This document shows positions 9,585 to 42,966 of a DNA stretch of 57,206 nucleotides, piece by piece (position 1 is the first letter of the stretch; the number at the start of each line of letters is the position of its first letter). Source of the stretch: Desulfovibrio sp. (lineage in GTDB: Bacteria > Desulfobacterota > Desulfovibrionia > Desulfovibrionales > Desulfovibrionaceae); assembly GCA_017454855.1 (NCBI GenBank), contig JAFTCE010000041.1, positions 1 to 57,206 of the forward strand, in the 5' to 3' direction. Both the position numbers and the translations under genes were made by a program. The notes beneath the pieces were generated by a model that searched no databases, was not told where the DNA came from, and saw nothing but the letters and a program-made list of their open reading frames with translations.

Positions 9585-10160
9585 TTAGAAAGAGTAATTT
9601 AATTCGGCGAAATATGCCTGGGGATGCGCACAGGCAGGGCACACATCCGGCGCCTGCTCACTCTCCACAAGACAGCCGCAGTTCAGGCAACGCCAGACCG
9701 TGGGTTTGGAACGACGAAACATACGTCCTTCCTTGATGTCCTTGGCCAGGGCCAGGAAGCGACGTTCGTGGTAGGATTCGGCTACGGCAATATGGCGCAT
9801 GACATCGGCGATTTCGGGGAAACCTTCCTTTTCCGCCGTGGCAGCAAAAGAGGGGTACATGACCGTGTGTTCGTGATTTTCACCGCCAGCAGAAGCCAGA
9901 AGGTTTGCTTCGCTGTCGCCGATGATCCCAGCCGGGAAGCCAGCCGTAATTTCCACTTCACCGCCTTCCAGAAATTTGAAAAGGCGCTTGGCGTGTTCCT
10001 TCTCCTGCAGGGCCGTTTCCGTAAACACCTGTTGCACGAGTACAAGACCATCTTTCTTGGCCCGACCAGAAAAAGCGTCATAGCGGTTGCGCGCCTGGGA
10101 TTCCCCGGCAAAGGCCGTGAGCACATTTTTTTCCGTCTGCGTTCCCTTGATGGATTTCAT
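9585..10160 (-). CDS. rbr: Rubrerythrin
   Basis: Cytoplasmic non-haem di-iron peroxidase of 191 residues, the usual family length. The N-terminal four-helix domain carries the metal-binding glutamates (FAGESQARNRYDAF and later EKEHAKRLFKFLE; VAESYHERRF). The C-terminal rubredoxin-like domain has the two CxxC pairs (CLNCG and CPACAHP). It reduces hydrogen peroxide in anaerobes, taking electrons from rubredoxin or NADH-linked reductases. ATG at 10160 follows a run of G that serves as ribosome site. It is monocistronic, with its own candidate promoter and terminator. Identification is secure. Confidence 0.96.
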   Translation of the reverse strand: MKSIKGTQTEKNVLTAFAGESQARNRYDAFSGRAKKDGLVLVQQVFTETALQEKEHAKRLFKFLEGGEVEITAGFPAGIIGDSEANLLASAGGENHEHTVMYPSFAATAEKEGFPEIADVMRHIAVAESYHERRFLALAKDIKEGRMFRRSKPTVWRCLNCGCLVESEQAPDVCPACAHPQAYFAELNYSF

Positions 10161-10231
10161 ACAAGTCCCCCCCGTTTTTGTTGTCAGATGCCCCCCCGCA
10201 CTCCACATTGGGGCGTAGTTTTAGCATTTTG

Positions 10232-10260
10232 GGGATACTGTTTTTTTACTGTCCTGTCAA
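10232..10260 (-). promoter_or_regulatory. Candidate sigma-70 promoter for rubrerythrin
   Basis: On the minus strand TTGACA (10260-10255) is followed after 17 bases by TATCCC (10237-10232), about 70 bases ahead of the rubrerythrin start. The -35 is perfect and the -10 is weak. I see no convincing PerR palindrome. The rest of 10161-10404 holds no gene. Confidence 0.5.
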
Positions 10261-10404
10261 GCAGCACGATGCATCAGAAAAGCGTTGTCAAAGGCAGGGC
10301 CTGCAACCAGAGGCAGAGAGAGGTACGAACCGATAGCTATCAAACGCGGGAAAGCCACATTTGGGGCAGCGCGCACCCAAGTTCCGCGCCACCCCGGCAA
10401 AAGG

Positions 10405-12009
10405 TTATTCTTCTTCACCCTCGCCTTCAAATTTGATGAAGCCGGGGTTGGCATTGACCATGCAGTTGACGATCAGTTCCACCAGGCCGCCGTAGGCAAA
10501 ATTATTCTTGGTGTAGAGATCATTGTGTTCCAGCAATTCGCGTATCTGGCCCTTGCAGTTGGAACAGGGAGCGCAGATGTACTTGCGGGTCTCGGGGCCG
10601 AGGCAATCCTTGAAGGCTTCGGAAATCTGCCACATCTTTTTGCGGCCAGAGATGTTGCCACGCCACTGTTCAATGTTATTGCGCGTCATGATGGCAAAGC
10701 CCGAACCGCCGCCGCAACAGTAGTTGTCCACGCCATGGCAAGGCATTTCACGGAACTTGGGGGCAATGGCGCGCAGGATTTCGCGTTGCGGCTCCACAAT
10801 GCCCATAAGGCGCACGATGTTGCACGGGTCGTGCAGCGTCACCGGGAAATCATTGCGGGAAGGATCCAGCTTGAGCCTACCAGACAGGACGATGTCGCGC
10901 AGGGTGACGTAGCAGCCTTCGCGTGGCACCTGGTATTCATAGGGGATGACGCGGTCGGCGATGACGGTGAGCGCCTTGTGGGCATGCCCGCACTCGCCAA
11001 TGACGATCTTCTTTACCCCCAATTCCTTGGCAGCCTGCATATGGGCCAGCGCGATGCGTGCGAGCTGGGCGTCGTCGTAAAAGACGCCGTAATTCACGCC
11101 GTCATAGCCTATGGCCTTGCTGGAGAGCGTCCAGGAAAGACCGGCCTCCTGGAAGATGAGGGAGAAGGCGGCCACGTTTTCCGGCCAGGCCATGATTTCA
11201 CCGGCATTGTGCAGGAGTAGAATGTCCGCGCCCTTAACGTCGAAAGGCGTCGTGATACCTACGCCGGTGATCTCCGTGTAATCCTCGTCAATGAACTCCA
11301 CGTTTTCCTTGACCACCTCCGGCGTCATGCCGGTGGAGGAACCGCATTTCATCTGGTTGACGGTACCCTTCTGGTGCAATTCTGGCGGATAGAAACCCAT
11401 TTCCTGGCTGAAAATCTTGCGGATTTCGCGGGCAATGAGACCATTGTCCACGCCAATGGGGCAAGTCTGTGCGCAACGGCGACAGAGGTTGCAGCGATAG
11501 GCCAGCTCACCAAGCCGGGCCACGGTCTTCCAATTGAGATTCATGTCGCCGTAACGCCATTTGGCGAAGGGCTCTTTTTTCACATACTGCTTGTAAATGC
11601 GACGGAAGATTTCCGACCGGTAGTTCGGTCGATACATTTCGTTCTCGCCAGACATCTCGTAGAGATGGCAGGCTTCGGAACAGGAATTGCATTGTACGCA
11701 GTTATCCATGCTGGTTTCCAGCATGGGCAGGCAGGTCCAGTTGTTTTCCTTGGTGAATAGCTTGCGCATGCCGCTGATGAACTTGTTCACCAGTTCTTCT
11801 TCTTCGGCCCGATTCTTGGGCTTGGGAATGTTTAGCACGCACACATCGTCCAGAATGCAGGCAGTGTTTGCCTTCTGCTCTTCAGTGAAGGGCTTCCAGG
11901 GCATGGGCGCCACATCAATGGGCAGCTTGGGCAGATCGTTGATATCGATGCTGACCATCTGCCCTTCCACATTGGAAACATCGGTAATTTTCAAGGTATC
12001 GTTTTTCAT
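10405..12009 (-). CDS. HdrD/DsrK-family iron-sulfur oxidoreductase subunit (membrane-complex partner)
   Basis: Cytoplasmic iron-sulfur protein of 534 residues. The N-terminal half has two [4Fe-4S] motifs (CVQCNSCSEACH and CNLCRRCAQTCPIG). The C-terminal half has a heterodisulfide-reductase-type CCG domain: DPCN, then CCGGGSG about 33 residues later, then CAPC. All CCG-domain cysteines are present, unlike DsrK of the same window. It follows a NarI/DsrM-like cytochrome b gene by 11 bases, giving a two-subunit quinone-linked complex. No cytochrome c gene is adjacent. It resembles TmcB/OhcC/DsrK-type subunits of Desulfovibrio complexes, but I cannot say which. The start at 12009 is supported by GGGAG ahead of it. 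Confidence 0.85.
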   Translation of the reverse strand: MKNDTLKITDVSNVEGQMVSIDINDLPKLPIDVAPMPWKPFTEEQKANTACILDDVCVLNIPKPKNRAEEEELVNKFISGMRKLFTKENNWTCLPMLETSMDNCVQCNSCSEACHLYEMSGENEMYRPNYRSEIFRRIYKQYVKKEPFAKWRYGDMNLNWKTVARLGELAYRCNLCRRCAQTCPIGVDNGLIAREIRKIFSQEMGFYPPELHQKGTVNQMKCGSSTGMTPEVVKENVEFIDEDYTEITGVGITTPFDVKGADILLLHNAGEIMAWPENVAAFSLIFQEAGLSWTLSSKAIGYDGVNYGVFYDDAQLARIALAHMQAAKELGVKKIVIGECGHAHKALTVIADRVIPYEYQVPREGCYVTLRDIVLSGRLKLDPSRNDFPVTLHDPCNIVRLMGIVEPQREILRAIAPKFREMPCHGVDNYCCGGGSGFAIMTRNNIEQWRGNISGRKKMWQISEAFKDCLGPETRKYICAPCSNCKGQIRELLEHNDLYTKNNFAYGGLVELIVNCMVNANPGFIKFEGEGEEE

Positions 12010-12020
12010 GGTGTGACTCC

Positions 12021-12956
12021 CTAATCTTTCTTGGGGGCTGCGGGATTGGTCGTGGCCACCTCAAGCCATGTCCTGGCCTGTCCGTCACCCGTAATATGCT
12101 GGGCCGCCCACGTGGTCTTGTACTGCAAAATACCAGGGATCTTTTGCTGATTTTTTTGATCCTGGGCCGTGGGTGAATCCCCCCAACGAATGTCGTGATA
12201 CATCCAGTATTTCATGATCAAGTGCCCCATATTAGTCACGGGGATGAGTATCATGAGCAGGAAGCCCACCAACAAATGCAGACAGAACAGCGTACTTCCC
12301 AGACAGACGAAATGAAAAGTAAGCAGGTTGTGCATGAAATCACGAGCCAGAGCGTAAAAAGAAGGATTAGCCAGCCAAGCCAACAGGCCCAACACGCCGA
12401 AGACGACGAAGGCGCCCAGATTCAGGTAATGTTCCTTCGTGCTGTAACGACGCAGCCCCTGATCCGTCAGACGGCGATGGATGAGAGCGCAACCACCCAC
12501 AATAATGCAGAAGTTGCCAGCCAGGCTGCATGCGTTGAGTACGTTGCCGATAACGGTCATCAGCCAGCTCTCGGAAGAAAGTCCGAGAAGTTCAAGAACC
12601 GTGCCGCCCAGCAGGATGATGACGCCGCCCATGAGCAGATACATGCCCAAGTGGAAGGGATAGGTGCGCACCCAAAGTTTCAAATTGTGTTCAAAAGTGG
12701 CATGCAGGAAGAGTACTTCCTTGAAGATGCCCATGATATCCCCCATATGCTCCATATGGCGGGGTTTTGTCCACCACTCACCTTCTTCCATGAAACTGCC
12801 GCCGTAGCTAGCCTTGGCGCCTTCATGCGGCACAGGGTACAGTTCCCAGCGCACATGCAGGGGACTTGCCTTGTAATAGCTTTTAATCTTCACATACGCC
12901 AATGCCACGAAGCCAATTACCGCAAGATACGCGAGAAGATAAAATACTGTGGTCAT
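12021..12956 (-). CDS. NarI/DsrM-like membrane cytochrome b subunit
   Basis: Integral membrane protein of 311 residues with about six hydrophobic segments: an N-terminal anchor (TTVFYLLAYLAVIGFVALAY), then a bundle with paired histidines (FHLGMYLLMGG; FHFVCLGSTLFCLHLLVGF). This fits a b-type haem quinol oxidase/reductase subunit of the NarI/DsrM family. ATG at 12956 follows GGGAG. A longer frame reaches 13058 but adds only a polar leader. It is 11 bases upstream of the HdrD/DsrK-like gene, in the same cytochrome b-then-FeS order as HmcE-HmcF and DsrM-DsrK. Confidence 0.85.
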   Translation of the reverse strand: MTTVFYLLAYLAVIGFVALAYVKIKSYYKASPLHVRWELYPVPHEGAKASYGGSFMEEGEWWTKPRHMEHMGDIMGIFKEVLFLHATFEHNLKLWVRTYPFHLGMYLLMGGVIILLGGTVLELLGLSSESWLMTVIGNVLNACSLAGNFCIIVGGCALIHRRLTDQGLRRYSTKEHYLNLGAFVVFGVLGLLAWLANPSFYALARDFMHNLLTFHFVCLGSTLFCLHLLVGFLLMILIPVTNMGHLIMKYWMYHDIRWGDSPTAQDQKNQQKIPGILQYKTTWAAQHITGDGQARTWLEVATTNPAAPKKD

Positions 12957-13127
12957 GCTGCGATACTCCCGTTGGTCAAAATTCCCCCAAAATTTCGTCT
13001 GCGTTCGGCTACCGCCACCAGCCTGTGCAAGCATGGCGACACATCGACTCATCGACATGGCCTTTTTCGCTCATTTCTCGCTCAGACCAGGAATTGCCTC
13101 AACGCACGGTTTCTTGAAAGATACTTG

Positions 13128-18064: not shown

Positions 18065-18517
18065 TCACTTGCCATTTTGGGCTGCGATTTTCAGAGCATT
18101 GCGCGAGCCAGGAGACATGTGGCAAGGTCGGCAGCCCCTAAACTTGAGTCCATATCGGCTTTCGCTTTTTTCCACCAGGCTTGTATGACAGCCTACGCAC
18201 GAACGGCCATTGTCCTTGGCATGAAAGGCCATGAACATACTGATTGGGTCGCGCGCCCGAACGCCAGGGGTGCAATGACAGGTGGTACAGGCCACATATC
18301 TGCCTTCACTGCTCACATTGTGATGACAATGCATGCAGTTGACGCCCCGATGATCCGTATGGGCGAACACCACGCTCATGCGTTTGGACGCACCGCCCGG
18401 AATTTCAAGAGGCTGCTTGATAATAGTGGCCATTTCCCGCATGTCCCTCGCCCCTGCTGGAGGACAGCACAGCACGGCCAGCGCCAGAGCCATCACGAAC
18501 ATTGGCAAATTTTTCAT
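18065..18517 (-). CDS. Periplasmic tetraheme cytochrome c3
   Basis: A protein of 150 residues with a signal peptide (about residues 1-23) and four CxxCH sites: CMHCH, CTTCH, CVGCH, CRPCH. The first is followed by a second histidine (CHH), a cytochrome c3 hallmark, and a distal ligand segment (FAHTDH) precedes it. All four sites are CxxCH; the classic type I c3 has two CxxxxCH sites. A type II-like (TmcA-like) c3 is therefore possible but unproven. Its role would be to accept electrons from periplasmic hydrogenases and pass them to membrane complexes. ATG at 18517 follows GGAGAGGA. It lies downstream of an Rrf2 gene on the same strand. Confidence 0.9.
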   Translation of the reverse strand: MKNLPMFVMALALAVLCCPPAGARDMREMATIIKQPLEIPGGASKRMSVVFAHTDHRGVNCMHCHHNVSSEGRYVACTTCHCTPGVRARDPISMFMAFHAKDNGRSCVGCHTSLVEKSESRYGLKFRGCRPCHMSPGSRNALKIAAQNGK

Positions 18518-18618: not shown

Positions 18619-19041
18619 TCAGCATCCGGTGTTCGGACACGCCTTGCGCAAGACATCTTCCAGCGATATGGAATCCAAGGCCACATTGAGATTTTCCTGG
18701 AGTTCCTCCCATACCTCACGCATGGCGCAAACACAGCAACGGTCACAGGATTCGGGACAATCAAGGCAAACAGCCAGTTCCATGCCACCCTCCATGGCGT
18801 TGAGAATCTTACCAAGAGTTACCTCATGCGGACGTTGCACCAAGATATGCCCTCCTCGGGCCCCGCGCACGCTGGCAGTGATACCTGCCGCACGTAGCTG
18901 CCTCAATATCTGCTCTATGAATTGCGCACTGATGCCCGTCTGCGTAGAAAGCCAGCTTGAGGAAACCGGCATGTCATTTTTTCTTTTTGCCATACAAAAC
19001 AAAATCCTTGCTGCATACCTGGTCTTGGCAGAAAGCTTCAT
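18619..19041 (-). CDS. Rrf2-family regulator with cysteine cluster
   Basis: Transcription factor of 140 residues. The N-terminal winged helix begins MKLSAKTRYAARIL and includes the wing RGARGGHIL. Between residues about 91 and 105 there are six cysteines (CLDCPESCDRCCVC), in the place where Rrf2/IscR/NsrR proteins hold an Fe-S cluster, so redox or NO sensing is likely. ATG at 19041 follows GGGAG; the TTG three bases earlier is less likely. It is divergent from a second Rrf2 gene that lacks this cluster. The founding Rrf2 controls the hmc operon in D. vulgaris, and an Hmc-like pair lies nearby here. Confidence 0.9.
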   Translation of the reverse strand: MKLSAKTRYAARILFCMAKRKNDMPVSSSWLSTQTGISAQFIEQILRQLRAAGITASVRGARGGHILVQRPHEVTLGKILNAMEGGMELAVCLDCPESCDRCCVCAMREVWEELQENLNVALDSISLEDVLRKACPNTGC

Positions 19042-19201
19042 CAAGTCTCCCGACAGGTTAAAAGCATATCAAATTATACCAATTTATATCATATAATTTA
19101 GGAACAGTCATTCTTACCGTACTTTCATAGAAATGTATATCGTTTTCACGGTATTATATTCACTTTTTATTGGCAAAGAGCCTCAGTATTCACATTTTAT
19201 G

Positions 19202-19276: not shown

Positions 19277-19795
19277 ATGCGCATTTCATCAATGGCTTTT
19301 CACGCCTTGCAGTTGCTCATGGAACTCGTCCGCCAGGCTGACAACACTCCCATGTCCGCATCGGAACTCGCCTTGGCTTGCGGGATTTCTGAACATTTTA
19401 CCCAAAAGATTATGCGCAGCCTGCGCTGTTGTGGCATTGTGCGCAGCGTTAAAGGCATTGCAGGCGGTCATCTGTTAGCCCGCAGTGCCGACAGGATTTC
19501 CCTGAGAGATATCATTCTCGCCGTGGAAGGGAGCGTTTCTCTACCGGATGTGAAGGATAAAACTCCTAACATTGCTGCTATTACGGACGTCTGGTCGCAG
19601 GCGTGCAACCTTATGCTTGAAGAACTTGCAACCTTCAATCTGGCTGGCATCTGTACACGCACTGTCACGCTGCATTCGGTCACAAAGCAAGATGGAGAAA
19701 GACCTGCAACAGCCCCACGTTGCAGGTTGCGTATTTCTGTGGGGCGCTTGAGATGTCGAAAATCTCAGCGCAAATCCCGTTCCCTCCCTTCTTAA
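19277..19795 (+). CDS. Rrf2-family regulator without cysteine cluster
   Basis: About 172 residues. It has an N-terminal winged helix (MRISSMAFHALQLLMELV) and wing (VKGIAGGHLLARS), typical of Rrf2. Where the cluster ligands would be it reads VEGSVSLPDVKDKTPNIAAI, so no Fe-S cluster is expected. The last 30 residues are basic and low in complexity and are encoded across a hairpin (19702-19727); homologues normally end near residue 140-150, so the tail may come from a lost stop codon. It is divergent from the Cys-rich Rrf2 gene and convergent with the HmcF-like gene. Confidence 0.85.
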   Translation: MRISSMAFHALQLLMELVRQADNTPMSASELALACGISEHFTQKIMRSLRCCGIVRSVKGIAGGHLLARSADRISLRDIILAVEGSVSLPDVKDKTPNIAAITDVWSQACNLMLEELATFNLAGICTRTVTLHSVTKQDGERPATAPRCRLRISVGRLRCRKSQRKSRSLPS

Positions 19796-19863: not shown

Positions 19864-21252
19864 TTAACCTTGGTCAACGTGTTCAATATTTTCAGGAATT
19901 TCCATCATCTTGAGCAAAAGCGGCTTGAGAAACGTCCACTTGATATTGTGTTCCTCGTACACTTCCATCATGTCGCGGATGGCATCCCAACAGTTGTGGC
20001 AGGGCGTGACCACCATTTGCGCGCCGGTCGCCCGGATCTGATCCAGCTTGTTCTTGAGGCCCACATTGCGTTCCTTGCGGTACAGGCCAATGCCGTTGAG
20101 TCCACCGCCGCCACCACAGCAGAAATTGTGTTCGTTGTGCGGATCCATTTCGCGAAAATCTTCGGCTATATAGCCCATGATCTCACGCGTATATTTGCCC
20201 AACCCATCGTTACGCACATAGTTGCAGGCATCCTGCAAGGTGCAGGGCATCTTGAGCTTCTTGGCCGGATTGATCTTCAGCTTGCCTTCGCGCAATACCT
20301 TGGCCACCCATTCCACATAATGCAGGAAGGGCACCGGCGCGTCACCACTTTCACGTCCGGCCCAGTAGGGACCTTCCACCACCGTGGCCCGATGCGCATG
20401 GCCGCATTCCGTGCCCACCACCATCTTTGGCTTTAGGCGATCCACAGCGGCATAGATGCGCTTGAGATTCTGCGCACAGCCTTCCCAGTCACCGGCGAAC
20501 ATGGTCAAAGACGTCGTTTCCCAGCCTTCGCGCGGCACCGTCCAACTCGTGCCCGTCACATGAAAGAGAATGGCGGCAGCAGCCAAATCCTCGGGGTAAT
20601 GCTTCACTTCGCGAGCGTTGCAAATGTACATGACATCGCAACCTTCCTTTTCCACGGGGATTTCCAGGCCAGGCCATTCGTCTGCGTTTTCGTCCACCAT
20701 CCACTCAAGCGTATCCACCCAATCTTCCTCGGTCACGTCCATCTGCGCGCCATACACGCGATGCATGCCCGAACCTATCTTCAATTCCCAAGGCACAAAA
20801 CCGTGCTTGAACAGAATGCCGCGCAGATAGCTGAACATGACACCGGTATCAATGCCGTGCGGACAATACAGGCCACAGCGGTTACAGCAGGTACACTGCC
20901 CCCAGGCCACGTCCATGGCGTGCATCATGAATTCCGTGTCTACCCTGCCCTTGCGTTTGCACATTTCGCCCAATGTAGATTGGATCTTGTACGACGGGAT
21001 CTGCTTGGGATCGTTATTGTTAGTCTTATAAAAAAAACAACTGTCAGCGCACATGCCGCAATGGGCGCATATTTCCAGCCAGGTGCGCGTCCGGGACTTG
21101 CAGGTTTGCTGCAAATCAAGGTACAGGGCATTTTGATCAACCTTGAGTGCGCGCATTTGCCGGTAGTATTCCTCGCCGCCCTTGTCAGCCAGCAGGGCAT
21201 GGATGCCTTCCTTGGTCGTGACAGGCGTCGGAGAACAGAGAATCTGGGACAT
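19864..21252 (-). CDS. hmcF: HmcF-like HdrD-family iron-sulfur subunit
   Basis: Cytoplasmic protein of 462 residues, close to the 461 I recall for HmcF. Two [4Fe-4S] motifs ([13 protein letters not shown] and [14 protein letters not shown]) are followed by a complete CCG domain: LQDACNYV, then [12 protein letters not shown], then TPCHNC. It would pass electrons between the membrane cytochrome b and an unknown cytoplasmic acceptor, possibly a thiol/disulfide. ATG at 21252 follows GGAG. The upstream gene is HmcE-like. HmcA-D are absent here, so the symbol means homology to HmcF, not membership of a full Hmc complex; TmcB is the main alternative name. Confidence 0.85.
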
Positions 21253-21289
21253 GTCGTACTCCTTGCAAAATCGTCAGGGAAAAGCGTGC

Positions 21290-21970
21290 CTACCAGGGGA
21301 AGACGCCGCCGCGCGTATCGCCGCCGCGCTTGATGGCAAAATCCATGCCCAACTGCGCCCGCGACATGAAGAAAAGCACAATATGCGCCAACTTGGTAAA
21401 GGGCGCCAACACGAGGAACGCTTCCCCGGTGAACACATGCAGCAGCATCCAGGTATCATAGGCCCCCACATCCAACCTGGCCATGAAGCCGGTGAAGAAG
21501 GGCAAGAATGTCAGCACAAGGACGAACCAGTCTTGCCAGGTGTTGAGCTGCCGCAGCACGGGCGACGTGAATCGCCGCACAGCCAGCAGAATGAGTCCGG
21601 CAATGCTGGCCACGCAGAGGACATCCGCCAGGGCCGTCGGCAGCGAAGGCAGGGCGATGCCGATGGTTTGTTCCAGCACCACGGTATGCCCCAGCAGGAA
21701 AAGGGGCAGCAGCACGGCGCCGAAGTGCAGCAGGAAAAAGGCCAGCATGGCTACCGGCTGCGCACGCCAGCCTGCCGTCCCCCCGGGAAGGAGCCATTTG
21801 CCAATGGAAACAAGAGCGCCGGGTATGGATCGCTCCTTGTGGTAGGCATAGGCAACGCGTTCCAGCCGCCAATCCAGCCCCCGCACATACCATATGGCCC
21901 GAACCAGCATGCCGACAAAAAAAATGACCAGCGAGACCACAAAACATGGGCCGACAAGTGTCTGCATCAT
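21290..21970 (-). CDS. hmcE: HmcE-like membrane cytochrome b (NarI family)
   Basis: Integral membrane protein of 226 residues with about five hydrophobic helices. Histidines suited to b-haem ligation occur in AFFLLHFGAVLLPLFLLGHT and in WMLLHVFTGEAFLV / KLAHIVLFF. Length and order match HmcE of D. vulgaris. Two adjacent ATGs exist (21970 and 21967); AGGAG lies 10 bases before the first. The gene stands between the triheme cytochrome (47 bases upstream) and HmcF-like (37 bases downstream), forming a compact periplasm-to-cytoplasm electron path. Confidence 0.85.
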   Translation of the reverse strand: MMQTLVGPCFVVSLVIFFVGMLVRAIWYVRGLDWRLERVAYAYHKERSIPGALVSIGKWLLPGGTAGWRAQPVAMLAFFLLHFGAVLLPLFLLGHTVVLEQTIGIALPSLPTALADVLCVASIAGLILLAVRRFTSPVLRQLNTWQDWFVLVLTFLPFFTGFMARLDVGAYDTWMLLHVFTGEAFLVLAPFTKLAHIVLFFMSRAQLGMDFAIKRGGDTRGGVFPW

Positions 21971-22017
21971 GAGCGTCTTTCTCCTCAAGCGGCGCTGTCA
22001 CGCCGAAAAATATATGG

Positions 22018-22416
22018 CTACTTCATTGCCCTGAGCGTATTGCCCTGCGCATGGCAAGACCGACAATCCCCAATCGAGGGGCCACGCCCGCTGGCCTTGT
22101 GGCAGTCCGTACATGCAGTGTGCATATAGGTCACCTGCCTGTCCGCCTTCTGAAGGCGCACATCCAAAACAGAGACTGACAAGCCCTCGGAGGTGACTCT
22201 GTGGCAGCGCGAGCAGTCGCTGTCGTGCTTTTCCACATAGGCCACATGTGCGTCATGATTGAACATGACGACCGGCATAGTGGGACTGTCCACAGCGGGA
22301 GTTTTGACAACAAGCAGCTCGTCCGCTTGAACGCCCTGAGGGGAAGCGAGAACGAACGGAACAAGAAACAGGCTGCAGCAACACAGGCATGCGCTCCTCA
22401 AGTTGATAGATGGCAT
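22018..22416 (-). CDS. Periplasmic triheme cytochrome c (c3/c7-like)
   Basis: Small cytochrome of 132 residues. A cysteine-rich hydrophobic signal peptide is followed by three haem sites only: CSRCH, CTDCH and CRSCH. The ligand segment MFNHDAHVAYV precedes the first. Relative to tetraheme c3 one haem is missing, as in cytochrome c7. It begins with ATG at 22416 after GAGGAGAG and directly precedes the HmcE- and HmcF-like genes, so it is most likely the periplasmic electron donor of that complex. The usual partners (HmcA 16-haem, TmcA 4-haem) carry more haems. Confidence 0.85.
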   Translation of the reverse strand: MPSINLRSACLCCCSLFLVPFVLASPQGVQADELLVVKTPAVDSPTMPVVMFNHDAHVAYVEKHDSDCSRCHRVTSEGLSVSVLDVRLQKADRQVTYMHTACTDCHKASGRGPSIGDCRSCHAQGNTLRAMK

Positions 22417-22492
22417 AGTCTCTCCTCTTCAACGGGTTGACCCCGTTTCTGAACTACATGCACTCTCTCGGCAGTTGTGTTGAAAACCGAAA

Positions 22493-22786
22493 TCAAAACG
22501 ATGCTGTTTTTTCAGCCAGCAGGGCTTCCGCGACCGATCGGACAAAGACGGAAGATTTGTAGGCGTCATTCTTTAAGCAATGCAGCACATAGCAAACTGC
22601 CGCGATCAGTCCCAGCCTGGCTTCCCCGTCCAGGTTCGTAGTCTGCAACCAGTAGTCCGCCGCGCTTTCCTCAGCAGTCAGACTGCGGACAATGCGGATG
22701 TCCTCTTCGCTCAAGCCGTGTGGTAGGTTGGAAAAGACATCCAGGAGCTCTTCAGCAAGATTCTGACGATCACACACGATTGCCAT
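22493..22786 (-). CDS. Small protein of unknown function upstream of triheme cytochrome
   Basis: A 97-residue soluble, acidic, mostly helical protein starting MAIVCDRQNLAEELLDVF, with ATG at 22786 after a strong GGAGG. No transmembrane segment, metal motif or known family is recognised. It contains three cysteines, two of them in the close AVCYVLHCL. It lies 76 bases ahead of the triheme cytochrome on the same strand and may be the first gene of that operon, which would suggest an accessory or regulatory role. Confidence 0.6.
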   Translation of the reverse strand: MAIVCDRQNLAEELLDVFSNLPHGLSEEDIRIVRSLTAEESAADYWLQTTNLDGEARLGLIAAVCYVLHCLKNDAYKSSVFVRSVAEALLAEKTASF

Positions 22787-24424: not shown

Positions 24425-25879
24425 ATGGCCAATACTACGGAAATGCGTGTGCTGACGAGAAAGTGGTCTCAGCGCCGATTCTGGCCGAAATTTGTGGAGT
24501 GGCTTGAAATTCGCGGCATTCGTGGCTGGGCAGGGCAGCGCATCACATTTGAATTTCCCATAACTGTTCTTGTCGGAGAAAACGGTTCCGGAAAAAGTAC
24601 CATATTGCAAGCCGTTGCTGCCTGCTATAAAAACAGCCTTCCAGGCAAGCAATGGTTCGCGTCTGATTTTTTTCCAGACACTCCGTGGGATTCTATAAAT
24701 AATGCATCGCTGCGCGTCGGCATCAAGGAAGGCGAACAGCATCTAGAAACATCCATCAGAAAGGCTTCCGACCGCTGGCGTGGAAATTTGCTGCGGCATC
24801 AACGCCCTGTGTACTACATAGATTTGCGGCGTATCCAACCGCTCGTGTCCAGGTCTGGATATGTGAAACTCGCAAATAAAAATTTACAGGAAATCAGCTC
24901 AAAGAAATTTTCTCCTTCTGTCACGCAGCGCCTCTCATTCATTCTCAACAGGGAATACACCAGCGCAAAAATGGCTATTGCCGGAAGTACCGAAGGGCAT
25001 GAAGTCCCTGTTATGGAACGAGGGGAACACATGTATTCCGGCTTCCATCAGGGGGCTGGAGAGATAACAGCTACAGAGCTGCTCGCTGCGGATTTTGAAA
25101 AATATTCTCTTGTCATCATTGACGAAATAGAATCCTCACTGCATCCACGCGCACAGCGAAGACTCATGAGAGATTTGGCAAAAATCGCTGAAGATCGAGA
25201 GATACAATTCATCATATCCACCCATTCACCGTATGTACTCGAAGAAATCCATCCTGACGGGAGAATGCTTGTTATGGATACGCTGTCTGGGAAATCTCTA
25301 TTTTCAGGAGTCAGTCCGGAATTTGCCATGACAAGCATTGACGACAAAACACATCCCGAATGTGCCGTATTTGTCGAAGACTGTGCGGCAAAAATTCTCG
25401 TCACAGAGGCCGTTGTCTCGGAAGACAGACATCTCATAAAACGTTTATCCATAACTCCATTTGGCAAAGCGCACGTTGGCGGGAGTCTTGGCCTTATGGT
25501 TGCTGAGAAAAGATTCGCAAAGCCAACAGTAGTTTTTCTTGATGGGGATCAGACGCAGACGCCCGGCACATATGTCCTTCCAGGCGGCGATGCGCCGGAG
25601 CTAGTTGTCTTCAATGCGCTTAAAGAACGAAACTGGCCTGGAATAGCTGAACGTCTCGGGCGCAAGTATTCTGAAATTTCCGATGCCCTGCCTTCGGCAA
25701 TGCTGTGGGAAAATCACCATGATTGGCAAAACGTGGCAGCGGACAAACTCAGCATACCGGCAAAAACACTCTGGCAGGCAATGTGTGCTTGCTGGGTGAC
25801 GAGCTGTATGTCTCAAGAAGAGCTACACGAAAGCATTACACAGCCGATACTCGCTGCATTGAGTAAGGACAAGGCTTGA
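24425..25879 (+). CDS. OLD-like AAA ATPase with C-terminal TOPRIM-type domain
   Basis: 484 residues. Walker A GENGSGKST at residues 51-59, an ABC-like signature region (FHQGAGE), Walker B SLVIIDEIESSLHPRAQ, and the switch histidine ISTHSPYVLEE. The last third fits a TOPRIM domain, with a glutamate in VFVEDCAAKI (near 317) and a DxD in VVFLDGDQ (near 373). This is the layout of OLD-family nucleases, many of which act in phage defence, alone or with partners (Gabija, PARIS, retrons). No helper gene is adjacent. It is visibly richer in A/T and in AAA/ATT codons than its neighbours, pointing to transfer. ATG at 24425 follows GGAGC. Confidence 0.82.
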   Translation: MANTTEMRVLTRKWSQRRFWPKFVEWLEIRGIRGWAGQRITFEFPITVLVGENGSGKSTILQAVAACYKNSLPGKQWFASDFFPDTPWDSINNASLRVGIKEGEQHLETSIRKASDRWRGNLLRHQRPVYYIDLRRIQPLVSRSGYVKLANKNLQEISSKKFSPSVTQRLSFILNREYTSAKMAIAGSTEGHEVPVMERGEHMYSGFHQGAGEITATELLAADFEKYSLVIIDEIESSLHPRAQRRLMRDLAKIAEDREIQFIISTHSPYVLEEIHPDGRMLVMDTLSGKSLFSGVSPEFAMTSIDDKTHPECAVFVEDCAAKILVTEAVVSEDRHLIKRLSITPFGKAHVGGSLGLMVAEKRFAKPTVVFLDGDQTQTPGTYVLPGGDAPELVVFNALKERNWPGIAERLGRKYSEISDALPSAMLWENHHDWQNVAADKLSIPAKTLWQAMCACWVTSCMSQEELHESITQPILAALSKDKA

Positions 25880-37949: not shown

Positions 37950-38969
37950 ATGTTACACTCATTACTGCTGGTGCTGCTCATAGGCGCCATCGCCTGGGGT
38001 GGAGCGACCATAGGGCTCGCGAGCCTGTTTGGCGTGGTCTTGCCTTATGTGGCAGTAGTCGTCTTTGTCGTCGGAGTTGTCTGGCGCATGGTGTATTGGG
38101 CAAAATCTCCGGTGCCCTTCCCCATCCCCACCACCGGCGGTCAAGAAGCCTCTCTGGACTTTATCAAACAGGCGAAATATGACTGTCCAACCACCTGTTG
38201 GGGTGTAGTGAAGCGCATGTTTCTGGAAGTCTTCTGCTTCCGTTCTCTGTTCAGGAACACCCTGGGAGAGGTTCGCGTGGACGACCCCATAAACAAGGGA
38301 CCGCGGGCCATCTATTATTCCTCCAAGTGGCTTTGGGCCTTTGCCCTGCTCTTCCATTACTGTTTCCTTCTGGTTTTTTTACGCCATTTTCGCTTTTTCA
38401 TGGAGCCGGTTCCGTGCTGTATCAGCTTTCTCGAAAGCCTGGACGGCATCATGCAGATAGGTTCGCCGCGTTTCTTCATGACCGGCGGTCTGCTCTTCGT
38501 GGCCCTGCTCTTTCTGCTCTGTCGGCGCATGTTTAATCAGCGCCTGCGCTATCTTTCGCTGGCCAATGACTATTTCCCGCTTTTCCTGCTCCTTGCCATC
38601 GTGGGCACGGGCCTGTGTCTGCGCTATTGTGACAAGACGGAAATCGCCCAGGTCAAGGTCTTCATCATGGGACTCACGCATTTCGCGCCAGTGGGTGTGG
38701 AAGGCATCAATGCGCTCTTCTTTACGCATCTGGCCCTTGTCTGCGTCCTGCTGATCTATTTCCCCTTTTCCAAGCTCATGCACATGCCGGGCATTTTCTT
38801 CAGCCCCACGCGAAACATGGCCTGCAACACCAGAGCCGTACGCCACGTCAATCCGTGGAATCCGCCCAAGCAATTCTTCACCTATGCCGAATATGAAGAC
38901 ACCTACCGCGACGCCATGGCCGAGGCCGGGCTGCCGCTGGAAAAGCAACCTGAAAAGGCCGCCCAGTAA
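37950..38969 (+). CDS. dsrM: DsrM, membrane cytochrome b of DsrMKJOP
   Basis: 339-residue NarI-type membrane subunit with about six helices. Histidines in the helices (LLFHYCFLLVFLRHFRFF; LTHFAPVGVEG; FFTHLALVCVLL) fit b-type haems. It takes electrons from menaquinol and passes them to DsrK. ATG at 37950 follows GAGGTAGG. It is followed after 11 bases by dsrK, and the order M-K-J-O-P is complete. Identification rests on the full gene order. Confidence 0.95.
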   Translation: MLHSLLLVLLIGAIAWGGATIGLASLFGVVLPYVAVVVFVVGVVWRMVYWAKSPVPFPIPTTGGQEASLDFIKQAKYDCPTTCWGVVKRMFLEVFCFRSLFRNTLGEVRVDDPINKGPRAIYYSSKWLWAFALLFHYCFLLVFLRHFRFFMEPVPCCISFLESLDGIMQIGSPRFFMTGGLLFVALLFLLCRRMFNQRLRYLSLANDYFPLFLLLAIVGTGLCLRYCDKTEIAQVKVFIMGLTHFAPVGVEGINALFFTHLALVCVLLIYFPFSKLMHMPGIFFSPTRNMACNTRAVRHVNPWNPPKQFFTYAEYEDTYRDAMAEAGLPLEKQPEKAAQ

Positions 38970-38980
38970 GGAGTTTCCCC

Positions 38981-40618
38981 ATGGCAAAATTACCCACGCC
39001 ACAAGCGCTTATGTCCAGCCGACCGGCCTTCCCCGACAAGGCCTGGCTTGACATAAAGCCCGAATTTGCGCCGGGCAGCTATTGCTACCCTGCCAAGAAA
39101 GAAACCATGGAACTGCTGCACATGCCCAATCCGCACGATTGGGATCCGTCTGCAGAAGATTGGAACCTGCCCGACAATTGGGAAAAAATTCTCTGTGACG
39201 CGTTTGAGGAACGGCTCGAAAAACACCGTTCACTCAAACTGTTCATGGATATCTGTGTGCGTTGCGGGGCATGCGCCGACAAATGCCATTTTTTCCTGGG
39301 CACCAATGACCCCAAGAACATGCCCGTGTTGCGCGCCGAACTGCTGCGTTCCCTGTACCGTCGAGACCATGCCATGCTGGGCAAGCTCCTTGGGAAACGC
39401 ATTGGCGCACGCAGCTGGGACAAAGAGGTCGTCAAAGAACTCTTCTACTATGCCTACCAATGTACCGAATGCCGCCGCTGTTCGCTCTTTTGCCCCTACG
39501 GCATCGACACGGCGGAAATCACGGCCATTGTGCGTGAATTGCTGCACGAAGTAGGTTTGGGCATACACTGGATCATGGATCCGGTGAAAAATTGCAGCTT
39601 CACCGGCAATCACCTGGGTATTCAGCCCCATTCCTTCAAGGAAATCGTGGAAATGCTGGCCGACGACTGCGAGACAGTGACCGGCATCCGTCCCAAGACG
39701 CCTTTCAACGAAAAAGGCCACGAAATCCTGTTCATCACTCCGTCAGGCGATGTCTTCGCCGACCCTGGCATCTATACCTTCATGGGCTACCTCCTGCTTT
39801 TCCACGAGCTGGATCTCGATTATACGTTTTCCACCTATGCTTCCGAAGGCGGTAATTTCGGTTCCTTCACCACCTTCAACATGGCCAAGAAGCTCAACGC
39901 CAAAATGTATGCCGAGGCCGAGCGCCTTGGCGTCAAATGGATTTTGGGCGGGGAATGCGGGCACATGTGGCGCGTGATTAACCAATACATGGGCACCTAC
40001 AATGGCCCGGCGCCCGACAACATGGTTACGCCGGTTTCACCGTTTACGGGCACCGTGTTCAAGAACGCGGCCTCGACCAAGATGGTACACATCGCCGAGT
40101 TCACGGCCGACCTCATTCAGCACGACAAGCTGAATCTGGATCCCAGCCGCAACGACCACATCATCACCACCTTCCACGACTCCTGCAATCCGGCCCGCGC
40201 CATGGGCTTGCTGGACGAACCGCGCTACGTGCTCAAGGCCGTGTGCAACAATTTCGTGGAAATGCCCGAAAACACCATCCGCGAACAAACATTCTGCTGC
40301 GGAGCCGGCTCTGGCCTGAACACAGAGGAAATCATGGAGTTGCGTATGCGCTCGGGCATGCCGCGCGGCAATGCTCTGCGCTATGTGCAACAGAAATATG
40401 GCGTGAATCACATGGCCTGCGTCTGCGCCATTGACCGCGCAACCTTGCCGCCGCTGGCCAACTACTGGGCTCCAGGCGTCACGGTCAGCGGCTTGCACGA
40501 ACTGGTGGCCAATGCCCTGGTCATGAAGGGCGAGTCCAAGCGCACCATGGATCTGCGTCAGGAAGATCTGCCCAATGTCGCAGAAGACGACGATGCCGCG
40601 CAGGGGGAGGGTCAATAA
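38981..40618 (+). CDS. dsrK: DsrK, catalytic iron-sulfur subunit of DsrMKJOP
   Basis: 545-residue cytoplasmic HdrD-like subunit. Two [4Fe-4S] motifs (CVRCGACADKCHF and CTECRRCSLFCPYG), then a CCG domain: HDSCNPARAMG, FCCGAGSGLN. The closing pair reads CVCAID, so the usual last Cys of CxxC is Asp, a change described for DsrK but not seen in the two paralogues in this window. It is thought to reduce the DsrC trisulfide/disulfide produced in sulfite reduction. dsrJ follows with its ATG starting right after the stop. Confidence 0.96.
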   Translation: MAKLPTPQALMSSRPAFPDKAWLDIKPEFAPGSYCYPAKKETMELLHMPNPHDWDPSAEDWNLPDNWEKILCDAFEERLEKHRSLKLFMDICVRCGACADKCHFFLGTNDPKNMPVLRAELLRSLYRRDHAMLGKLLGKRIGARSWDKEVVKELFYYAYQCTECRRCSLFCPYGIDTAEITAIVRELLHEVGLGIHWIMDPVKNCSFTGNHLGIQPHSFKEIVEMLADDCETVTGIRPKTPFNEKGHEILFITPSGDVFADPGIYTFMGYLLLFHELDLDYTFSTYASEGGNFGSFTTFNMAKKLNAKMYAEAERLGVKWILGGECGHMWRVINQYMGTYNGPAPDNMVTPVSPFTGTVFKNAASTKMVHIAEFTADLIQHDKLNLDPSRNDHIITTFHDSCNPARAMGLLDEPRYVLKAVCNNFVEMPENTIREQTFCCGAGSGLNTEEIMELRMRSGMPRGNALRYVQQKYGVNHMACVCAIDRATLPPLANYWAPGVTVSGLHELVANALVMKGESKRTMDLRQEDLPNVAEDDDAAQGEGQ

Positions 40619-41002
40619 ATGTATAATGCCAAAGCTGTCACCATTGGGATCATCATCTTTGTGATCCTGTTTACCTCCCCATTTTGGGCGAGTCTGCTGG
40701 GCAAAAATTACACGGAAAGCGGTATTACCCTGCCTGCCAGAGAAAAGGAATGCGTGGAAAGTGCCGAGTTCATGCGCAACAAGCATATGCAGTTGCTCAA
40801 TGAGTGGCGTGACGAAGCCCTGCGCAATGAACATCGTGTCTATGTGGCATCCAATGGCAAAAAATGGGCCATCAGCCTACAAAATACCTGCCTCAAATGT
40901 CATAAGGAATATACTGAGTTCTGCGATAAGTGCCATGTGGCCAACAGTGTTGATCCCTATTGTTGGACATGCCACCTCATTCCTCAGGGGAGCAAGAAAT
41001 GA
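40619..41002 (+). CDS. dsrJ: DsrJ, triheme periplasmic cytochrome c
   Basis: 127 residues: an uncleaved N-terminal membrane anchor (about residues 8-28) and three CxxCH sites at the end (CLKCH, CDKCH, CWTCH). Periplasmic subunit of the complex, one haem with unusual ligands in the family. ATG at 40619 follows AGGGGGAGGG. Its stop overlaps the dsrO start (ATGA). Confidence 0.96.
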   Translation: MYNAKAVTIGIIIFVILFTSPFWASLLGKNYTESGITLPAREKECVESAEFMRNKHMQLLNEWRDEALRNEHRVYVASNGKKWAISLQNTCLKCHKEYTEFCDKCHVANSVDPYCWTCHLIPQGSKK

Positions 41003-41784
41003 ACAAGAGCAGAAGAAGCTTTCTCAAAGTGGCGGGCATTTCCGCCTTTGCCCTGAGCACCAGCGTGGCGAGTTCCCTCTCTGCAACCGCGCAGGCCAAG
41101 GTAGCCCCAGGCAGCTATGAAAAAGGTGCCAGTGCCCTGCATGCCAAGCGCTGGGCCATGGTCATTGACACGCGTCGTTTCCTTACGGCCAAGGACTACA
41201 AGCCGATCATTGAAGCCTGTCACAGGGCGCACAACGTACCCAACATTCCTGACGATCAGAACATCAAATGGTTCTGGTTGGATTCTTTCGAACACGCCTT
41301 CCCGGACGAGATGAACGAATTCCTGGACAATAGGCGCAAAAGGGCCAGCTATCCCCTGCTGTGCAACCACTGCACCAATCCCCCCTGCGTCCGCGTCTGC
41401 CCCACGCAAGCTACCTACAAGATGGAAGACGGCATCGTGGCCATGGACTACCACCGCTGCATCGGCTGCCGCTTTTGCATGGCCGGCTGTCCCTATGGCG
41501 CACGCTCGTTCAATTTCAAGGATCCGCGCAAATTCCTGTCCAACCCCGTGCCCAATCCGGCCTTTCCCACGCGCATGATCGGCGTTGTGGAAAAATGTAC
41601 CTTCTGTGCCGAGCGCCTGGCCGTGGGTCAGATGCCTGCCTGCGTTGAGGCTTCGGGCGGGAAAATCCTCTTCGGCGACCTGGCTGACCCCAATTCCACG
41701 GTGCGCAAGGCTCTGGCCGAAAACTACAGCATACGCCGTAAGCCCAATCTGGGGACGCAACCCGGCGTGTACTATCTTATCTAG
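40999..41784 (+). CDS. dsrO: DsrO, periplasmic ferredoxin-like subunit with Tat signal
   Basis: 261 residues. Tat signal with twin arginine (NKSRRSFLKVAG) and a cleavage region near SATAQA. Cysteine motifs for four [4Fe-4S] clusters are spread over CNHCTNPPCVRVCP, CIGCRFCMAGCPYGA and CTFCAERLAVGQMPAC. It connects DsrJ to the quinone-linked DsrP. ATG at 40999 follows GGGGAG and overlaps the dsrJ stop. It is exported folded, so its clusters are inserted in the cytoplasm. Confidence 0.95.
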   Translation: MNKSRRSFLKVAGISAFALSTSVASSLSATAQAKVAPGSYEKGASALHAKRWAMVIDTRRFLTAKDYKPIIEACHRAHNVPNIPDDQNIKWFWLDSFEHAFPDEMNEFLDNRRKRASYPLLCNHCTNPPCVRVCPTQATYKMEDGIVAMDYHRCIGCRFCMAGCPYGARSFNFKDPRKFLSNPVPNPAFPTRMIGVVEKCTFCAERLAVGQMPACVEASGGKILFGDLADPNSTVRKALAENYSIRRKPNLGTQPGVYYLI

Positions 41785-41796
41785 GGGGAACAGTCC

Positions 41797-42966
41797 ATGC
41801 TTGAAAAAATTCTCGAAGGTCCCAGGACCTATTTTGTGTGGCTGCTCTTCCTGCTGCTCTGCATAGCGGGATGCGGCCTGGTCTATCTGACGCAGCTCCA
41901 GGAAGGACTCTCCGTCACGGGCATGAGCCGTGACGTCTCTTGGGGTCTCTATATCTCACAGTTCACCTATTTTGTGGGTGTGGCGGCCTCTGCCGTCATG
42001 CTCGTGCTGCCAACATACTTCCACCACTACAAAAAATTCAAGCGCATGATCATCTTCGGCGAATTCATGGCCGTGGCTGCCGTGGTCATGTGCGCCCTCT
42101 TCATCGTGGTGGACCTTGGACAGCCGCAGCGCATGCTCAATGTCATGCTCCATCCCACGCCCAATTCGGTCATGTTCTATGACATGATCGTCCTCATCGG
42201 CTATTTGTGCCTGAACATCGTCATCGGCTGGGTCACGCTGGAAGCCGAACGCCATGACGTTCTGCCGCCCAAATGGATCAAGCCCCGTATCTATCTTTCC
42301 ATCCTCTGGGCTTTTTCCATCCATACGGTCACGGCCTTCCTCTATGCCGGCATTCCCGGTCGCCACTACTGGCTCACAGCCATCATGGCGGGCCGCTTCT
42401 TGGCCTCTGCCTTCTGTTCCGGCCCGGCCATCCTCCTGTTGCTCATGCTCTTGGTGCGCAGGCTCACTGGTTTTGACATTGGCGAAGAAGCCAAGAAAAC
42501 CCTGGCGACCATCATCGTCTACGCCATGTGCGTCAATGTCTTCTTCTATCTCCTGGAGCTGTTCACGGCCTTTTACAGCGGCATTCCCGGCCATGCCGAA
42601 CCTATCCGCGTCCTCTTCTTTGGCCATGACGGCCATATGCTTTGGGTGAGTTATTGGATGTGGGCCGCCGTCATCATGGCCATTGCCTGCCTGGCCATTC
42701 TTATCCCGCCGCAGACGCGCACACATCCCACGCTCATGCCTGCGGCCTTGATCATGCTCGTGGCCGCCTCCTGGATTGACAAGGGCCTGGGCCTGCTCAT
42801 CGGCGGTTTTACGCCCAACATGTATGAGACCATCACGCCCTACCTGCCCACGTGCCGCGAAGTTGCCGTGGCCCTGGGCGTGTACGCCGTGGGCGCGCTG
42901 GTGCTTTCCCTCCTGTGGCGCGTTGCCCTGGGGGTCAAGAAAGAAACTGGACACTATACGGATTAG
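41797..42966 (+). CDS. dsrP: DsrP, NrfD-type quinone-interacting membrane subunit
   Basis: 389 residues with about ten transmembrane helices of the NrfD/PsrC family; no cofactor ligands are visible, as usual. It begins MLEKILEGPRTYFVWLLF and contains the NrfD-like DVSWGLYISQF. It binds menaquinone on the periplasmic side and is the last gene of the operon, before a strong terminator. Confidence 0.95.
   Translation: MLEKILEGPRTYFVWLLFLLLCIAGCGLVYLTQLQEGLSVTGMSRDVSWGLYISQFTYFVGVAASAVMLVLPTYFHHYKKFKRMIIFGEFMAVAAVVMCALFIVVDLGQPQRMLNVMLHPTPNSVMFYDMIVLIGYLCLNIVIGWVTLEAERHDVLPPKWIKPRIYLSILWAFSIHTVTAFLYAGIPGRHYWLTAIMAGRFLASAFCSGPAILLLLMLLVRRLTGFDIGEEAKKTLATIIVYAMCVNVFFYLLELFTAFYSGIPGHAEPIRVLFFGHDGHMLWVSYWMWAAVIMAIACLAILIPPQTRTHPTLMPAALIMLVAASWIDKGLGLLIGGFTPNMYETITPYLPTCREVAVALGVYAVGALVLSLLWRVALGVKKETGHYTD

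Follow-up and report, generated by a model that had tools for sequence, protein, structure and literature searches.

What kind of complex is encoded where the gene of a small three-haem cytochrome is followed by those of HmcE and HmcF, two subunits of the Hmc complex? The question arises in a contig of Desulfovibrio sp. (GenBank assembly GCA_017454855.1, contig JAFTCE010000041.1), the whole 57,206-nucleotide stretch of which was analysed and is here called the window; it is contig C154 of a genome (G000) of 2.95 Mb and 99.97% completeness. The initial annotation of positions 19864 to 22786 proposed a reduced complex of the Hmc/Tmc type that would be the smallest member of its series. This holds in that the locus, of Hmc/Tmc type, has three haems and three subunits and is smaller than either Hmc or Tmc. 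However, it is not the simple last step of a 16-9-8-4-3 haem series: its cytochrome corresponds to the N-terminal domain of HmcA and other Hmc parts are encoded on a second contig of the same genome (C140), so that the locus is best read as half of a split Hmc. From the comparison of sequences we consider it probable that this is the cytoplasm-facing half of the divided complex and that the Nhc complex is the other half. The split is well supported by homology, gene order, conservation, ligand integrity and the agreement of trees; complex formation, partners and the direction of electron flow at the triheme locus are inferred.

The genes lie in tight order on the minus strand, and the coordinates, strand and order first annotated were correct, including a small gene of no known family ahead. 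The latter (22493-22786) is separated by 76 nt from the gene of the secreted triheme cytochrome c (22018-22416; 132 residues, with a signal-like N-terminus and exactly three CxxCH motifs). By eye, a short inverted repeat (AACGGG...CCCGTT, window 22416-22492) is found directly ahead of the ribosome-binding site of the triheme gene. HmcE, a NarI-type cytochrome b membrane subunit (21290-21970), may start at the ATG at 21970, 47 nt from the triheme gene, or at that at 21967, and ends at 21290; HmcF (19864-21252), a cytoplasmic Fe-S protein with an HdrD-like CCG domain, follows after 37 nt. Both exceeded their NCBIfam cut-offs, HmcE with 287.8 bits (NF045716, cut-off 275) and HmcF with 876.4 bits (NF045711, cut-off 750). 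The seven nearest named relatives of HmcE (78-91% identity) were metagenome-assembled genomes (MAGs) of Desulfovibrio, four of them rumen-labelled and one D. desulfuricans. Four His residues of HmcE, likely ligands of two haems b, were conserved in all 92 rows of the alignment once the paralogues L148 and L149 had been set aside, and eight Fe-S Cys plus the CCG cysteines 343, 378, 379, 418 and 421 of HmcF were likewise conserved in 92 of 92 rows. Residues of this kind would ligate two haems b in HmcE, and in HmcF two [4Fe-4S] clusters as well as the CCG cluster. Since all the expected ligands are retained, the electron path across the membrane appears unbroken from the periplasmic to the cytoplasmic side.

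The identity of the cytochrome was then the central point. Against the HmcA model (NF045713) the triheme protein scored 60.7 bits, below the cut-off of 400, over positions 37-144, which hold three haems, and its best match on each of six real HmcA proteins also spanned three haems, those of domain I. Whether the comparison covered 13 trihemes from two genera or the 28 from the window's genus, the only invariant Cys and His residues were those of the three CxxCH motifs plus three further His. A fourth haem, which would have contradicted the annotated count, is accordingly rejected and the count of three stands. A sequence tree of domain I placed 16 trihemes in one clade (98/99; support pairs are bootstrap/Shimodaira-Hasegawa-like approximate likelihood ratio throughout), on few columns and with a long-branch warning. 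A structure model of the triheme was modest (mean predicted local distance difference test score 72) and the alignment behind it contained three HmcA rows among 19, and for these reasons we use the fold match as supporting evidence only; VIA-align ranked acidic c3, c3 and c7 chains lower, a ranking that excludes nothing.

The complement of this domain was found at the second locus, on C140, where a nine-haem cytochrome is followed by NhcB, NhcC and a 45-residue peptide that resembles HmcD by eye, which is the known Nhc complex. The nine-haem protein matched positions 265-540 of the HmcA model with 260.5 bits, and its best match on six of six HmcA proteins corresponded to their last nine haems. 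Its score on the nine-haem model (564 vs a cut-off of 640) marks it as a somewhat diverged NhcA, and NhcB and NhcC scored 433.6 bits (HmcB cut-off 420) and 594 bits (HmcC cut-off 550), respectively. No HmcB or HmcC matches adjoined the triheme gene, and no HmcF was found in the stretch fetched around the C140 genes. The 16 haems of HmcA can thus be written as 3 + 4 + 9: three lie at the triheme locus and nine in Nhc; domain II, which holds the remaining four, was unmatched in G000 in the HmcA search. A genome search for hmcABCD and tmcA had been proposed with the annotation. HmcB-, HmcC- and HmcD-like genes are present at C140 together with HmcA's nine C-terminal haems; neither HmcA nor TmcB over its cut-off was found in this genome.

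We compared the arrangement across a family set of 149 genomes and a set of 61 genomes of the window's genus (g1), 44 of which form a high-quality subset (completeness of 90% or more, contamination of 5% or less). HmcF exceeded its cut-off in 94 of the 149 family genomes. Among these 94 loci, 71 had an upstream HmcA with 14-16 CxxCH, 13 had a triheme (seven in the window's genus and six in a second genus, g40), two a seven-haem cytochrome and eight were of other kinds: five (L062, L079, L092, L094 and L107) cut at a contig end or frame-split, two (L074 and L082) with a 16-haem gene downstream of hmcF, and one (L090) without a nearby cytochrome. L074 and L082 belong to two genomes of g20, in which the HmcA gene lies downstream of hmcF rather than first in the cluster. 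Within the genus, HmcE reached the counting threshold of 244 bits in 28 of 61 genomes (two of the 28 at 244-245, below the NCBIfam cut-off), and in all 28 a gene with exactly three CxxCH was directly upstream and HmcF downstream; the six g40 genomes all carried triheme-HmcE-HmcF, again with exactly three CxxCH. The neighbourhood search in relatives that the annotation had called for returned the same arrangement in 28 of 28 genus HmcE loci and six of six g40 genomes. The locus was conserved and intact in the loci seen, and a decaying gene is rejected. The case that had been named as refuting, a degraded member of a full operon, applies to descent, since the trees described below nest the triheme locus among full Hmc, but not to the condition of the genes.

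The nine-haem part was more widespread. It occurred as a stand-alone protein in 61 of 61 genus genomes (frames of 323-459 residues), none of which, G000 included, had HmcA over the cut-off; Nhc without HmcF over the cut-off was found in g4 and g27, plus G087 and G146 of the window's genus. Each genus genome thus has either the two halves together (28 of 61) or only Nhc, some of those without HmcE being incomplete. These figures bear on the alternative that one physical Hmc is still assembled from the two loci, with triheme-HmcE-HmcF binding Nhc and only the genes and the cytochrome chain divided. In its favour, G000 encodes the full set of Hmc-type subunits A to F, with A in two parts and D as a D-like peptide, and wherever the EF half occurs in the genus (28 of 28 genomes) the nine-haem half accompanies it. 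However, 33 of the 61 have the nine-haem half without HmcE of at least 244 bits, and in the high-quality subset, where 22 of 44 genomes have the HmcE locus, the other 22 show the nine-haem half without it. Moreover, all six g40 genomes carry triheme-EF and, among the matches listed, the nine-haem model gave nothing above 30 bits there, while the bridging four-haem domain II is unmatched in G000. The halves assort separately, and we regard a single complex as unlikely.

A second alternative is a simplified Tmc-like complex, in which HmcEF acquired an independent small cytochrome (c7 or TmcA type) that does not descend from HmcA. TmcA was indeed the second-best family for the triheme (40.7 bits, cut-off 114), the broad Pfam families Cytochrome_C7 (28 vs 24.8) and Cytochrom_CIII (26.2 vs 22.9) passed their thresholds, and Tmc has itself been described, in an excerpt of PMC4215793, as possibly a simplified Hmc. 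Nevertheless, these scores, and the 17.6 bits on the CytC7 model NF043011 (cut-off 120, not reached), were weaker than those for an origin from HmcA domain I, and a cytochrome derived from Tmc or c7 was rejected; we hold this recruitment to be improbable.

The descent of the two halves was examined in trees built from sets of 60, 56, 55 and 53 rows, in which each genus not belonging to the groups of interest was represented by one or two loci. In the careful HmcE+F tree (56 rows, L096 and the far HmcF-like rows excluded), the window's genus formed a clade (100/99) that was joined successively by g40 (95/86), g31 (96/93) and g7 plus g42 (100/99), all inside full-Hmc lineages. A quick tree rooted on three HmcF-like rows agreed in placing triheme-EF deep in full Hmc, with a lower support (80) for g1 plus g40. 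In the careful HmcB+C tree (53 rows, L099 and L100 excluded), all 13 Nhc rows formed a single clade (100/100) with g31 next to it (100/100), also inside full Hmc, and an HmcC-only tree with 11 Nhc rows agreed with this placement. The HmcA of g31 is fused, with 12 CxxCH visible in G062 between the N-terminus and a contig end and the last eight in G030. Two unlinked halves thus lie beside the same fused relative, as a split predicts. In L099-L100, of g10, genes resembling those of HmcF and HmcE stand close to a cytochrome with nine CxxCH and to HmcB- and HmcC-like genes; in the HmcE+F tree these loci occupy a long branch apart from Hmc. The remaining alternative, that triheme-EF and Nhc are ancestral blocks later fused into Hmc, for which the seven-haem and three-haem versions could be read as steps to 16, is most improbable given that triheme-EF is nested deep in full Hmc under the three-row outgroup, that Nhc is nested in the HmcB+C tree, and that a single reduced clade of triheme and seven-haem loci was rejected (approximately unbiased test, p-AU 0.0006).

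Several observations weigh against the split reading. An rpoB tree, the rows of which were gathered by tblastn and do not include g31, placed g40 with g7 and g13 (100/98), both full-Hmc genera, and not with the window's genus, whereas an HmcE+F topology with g40, g7 and g42 as one clade obtained a p-AU of 0.03. This conflict suggests that the triheme complex was transferred between lineages or that the reduction happened twice. Grouping g1 with g31 without g40 was not rejected (p-AU 0.22), and the groupings compared in these tests were defined with the tree already in view. The evidence from g31 comes from two MAGs of 64% and 58% completeness, and the hmc region is broken in both. No homologue of the Rrf2-family regulators that stand by hmcF in the window was found near hmcF in the g40 loci. 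In addition, three of the 61 genus genomes (G040:C1, which is L149; G193:C4; and G159:C112) and two genomes of the family set, G068 (C13, L148) and G114, encode a fused HmcA-like protein that has diverged and scores below the cut-off. In G068 and G040 it has 16 CxxCH in frames of 715 and 841 residues, with HmcC-like and short HmcE-like neighbours; no HmcF was present in the 7-kb stretches around it in these two genomes, the HmcC of the fused locus fell outside the Nhc clade, and the protein had no match in G000.

Returning to the split, we picture its history and working as follows. An ancestral Hmc, with a 16-haem HmcA and HmcB to HmcF, would have divided in two, the N-terminal triheme domain staying with HmcE and HmcF and the nine C-terminal haems with HmcB, HmcC and HmcD as Nhc, while the four-haem domain II would have been lost. 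We lean towards the view that this fission left two machines, each retained on its own: Nhc (nine haems plus HmcBCD), which would link c3 to quinone, and triheme plus HmcEF, which would link c3 to the cytoplasm through a triheme docked on HmcE. The two would separately run the two reactions coupled in full Hmc. The docked triheme may exchange electrons with the periplasmic c3 pool, perhaps with a four-haem c3 encoded 1.3 kb away, and electrons could pass in either direction between the triheme and a cytoplasmic thiol partner, most simply DsrC, by way of the HmcE haems b and then the Fe-S clusters and the CCG site in HmcF; the NrfD-type quinone-site subunit would work apart, in Nhc. From the complete ligand path, the nearby c3, the presence of DsrC in G000, and the lack in this genome of TmcB over the cut-off and of any QrcA match, we infer a chain c3-triheme-HmcE-HmcF-cytoplasmic partner. 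Excerpts of the literature describe Nhc as a TpIc3:quinone oxidoreductase (PMC8076601), give the cytoplasmic partner of Hmc as not known, with DsrC or ferredoxin suggested (PMC4215793), and call the physiological function of HmcC and the direction of its electron transfer still uncertain (PMC6303296). A genus in which the quinone half is separated from the cytoplasmic half would allow each half-reaction to be measured and deleted alone. The split also links Hmc and Nhc, usually treated apart, and yields a prediction of the contacts between individual haem domains and membrane subunits. We found no description of triheme-HmcE-HmcF or of an Hmc-Nhc split in the literature searched, which was mostly open-access, so that an earlier mention is possible.

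The candidate periplasmic partner is a class III cytochrome c3 (18065-18517, minus strand) with four CxxCH and 63.3 bits on PF02085, the sole match listed for this family in G000 besides the nine-haem protein. The same genome search missed the triheme, which hmmscan scores over the threshold, so that "only c3 in the genome" is a statement of lower sensitivity, and the same caution applies to the negative result for QrcA. By coordinates, a PF02085 protein lies less than 4 kb from HmcE in at least three other genomes (G175, G202 and G161). Between this gene and hmcF there are two genes of Rrf2-family regulators, one adjoining hmcF (19277-19795, plus strand; Pfam Rrf2, 84.6 bits) and a second at 18619-19044 (minus strand; 115.3 bits). 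Both are downstream of hmcF, with homologues in the same order at five of six other genus loci, and an Rrf2 homologue was found less than 1.5 kb from hmcF in 30 of 71 full-Hmc loci. As rrf1 and rrf2 are named as hmc regulators in an excerpt of PMC10924467, the window's genus seems to have kept an hmc-like regulatory neighbourhood. At the other end of the cluster, the small upstream protein (97 residues) gave no convincing E-value in Pfam or NCBIfam. It was matched in six of the 149 family genomes, all of the window's genus and all adjoining the triheme gene, and among the 28 HmcE loci of the genus, 19 had a homologue, which was a weak match in two cases. Its reading as an HmcD equivalent is not supported: it is confined to the genus among the 149 genomes, and the HmcD-like peptide adjoins NhcC instead. 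Elsewhere in the window, a protein resembling DsrK, which at 330.8 bits stays below the cut-off of 400, adjoins a 345-residue protein without NCBIfam match and a rubrerythrin (9585-13058). With 77.8 bits against a cut-off of 500, a 484-residue protein (24425-25879) weakly resembles PtuA, a component of the retron Ec78 anti-phage systems.

Among the known systems, cytochrome c7 of the PpcA type is set apart by the CytC7 score given above, and Ohc, an octahaem cytochrome without a cytoplasmic CCG protein according to an excerpt of PMC4287179, by its haem number and by the CCG protein of the triheme locus. DsrMKJOP differs in that HmcF of the locus scored 165.5 bits against the DsrK cut-off of 400; an operon of this type, with DsrM, DsrK, DsrO and DsrP over their cut-offs, is present in the window at 37950-42966, apart from the triheme locus. 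Tmc, in part according to an excerpt of PMC4215793, similarly spans the membrane with a small c-type cytochrome, a cytochrome b and a CCG protein, but TmcA is a tetrahaem cytochrome and the locus misses the cut-offs of TmcA (40.7 vs 114), TmcB (344.8 vs 735) and TmcC (161.6 vs 240). The seven-haem loci L064 (3553-4476) and L077 (6151-6936), of two other genera, also have HmcE and HmcF and no HmcB or HmcC in the locus, but keep domains I and II of HmcA (L064 covers HmcA 4-254) and do not form one clade with the trihemes; no nine-haem match was found in G017. Hmc itself is the closest in parts, since HmcE and HmcF pass its cut-offs, the cytochrome corresponds to domain I of HmcA and Rrf2 regulators are nearby, but it carries 16 haems instead of three, and HmcB, HmcC and HmcD, lacking at the triheme locus, sit with the nine-haem gene at C140. 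Nhc differs in its nine C-terminal haems and its quinone-site NrfD-type NhcC, whereas the triheme locus has three haems, HmcF and no HmcC-like gene; in the same genome it is the sister half, and in the trees both halves join the same Hmc lineage.

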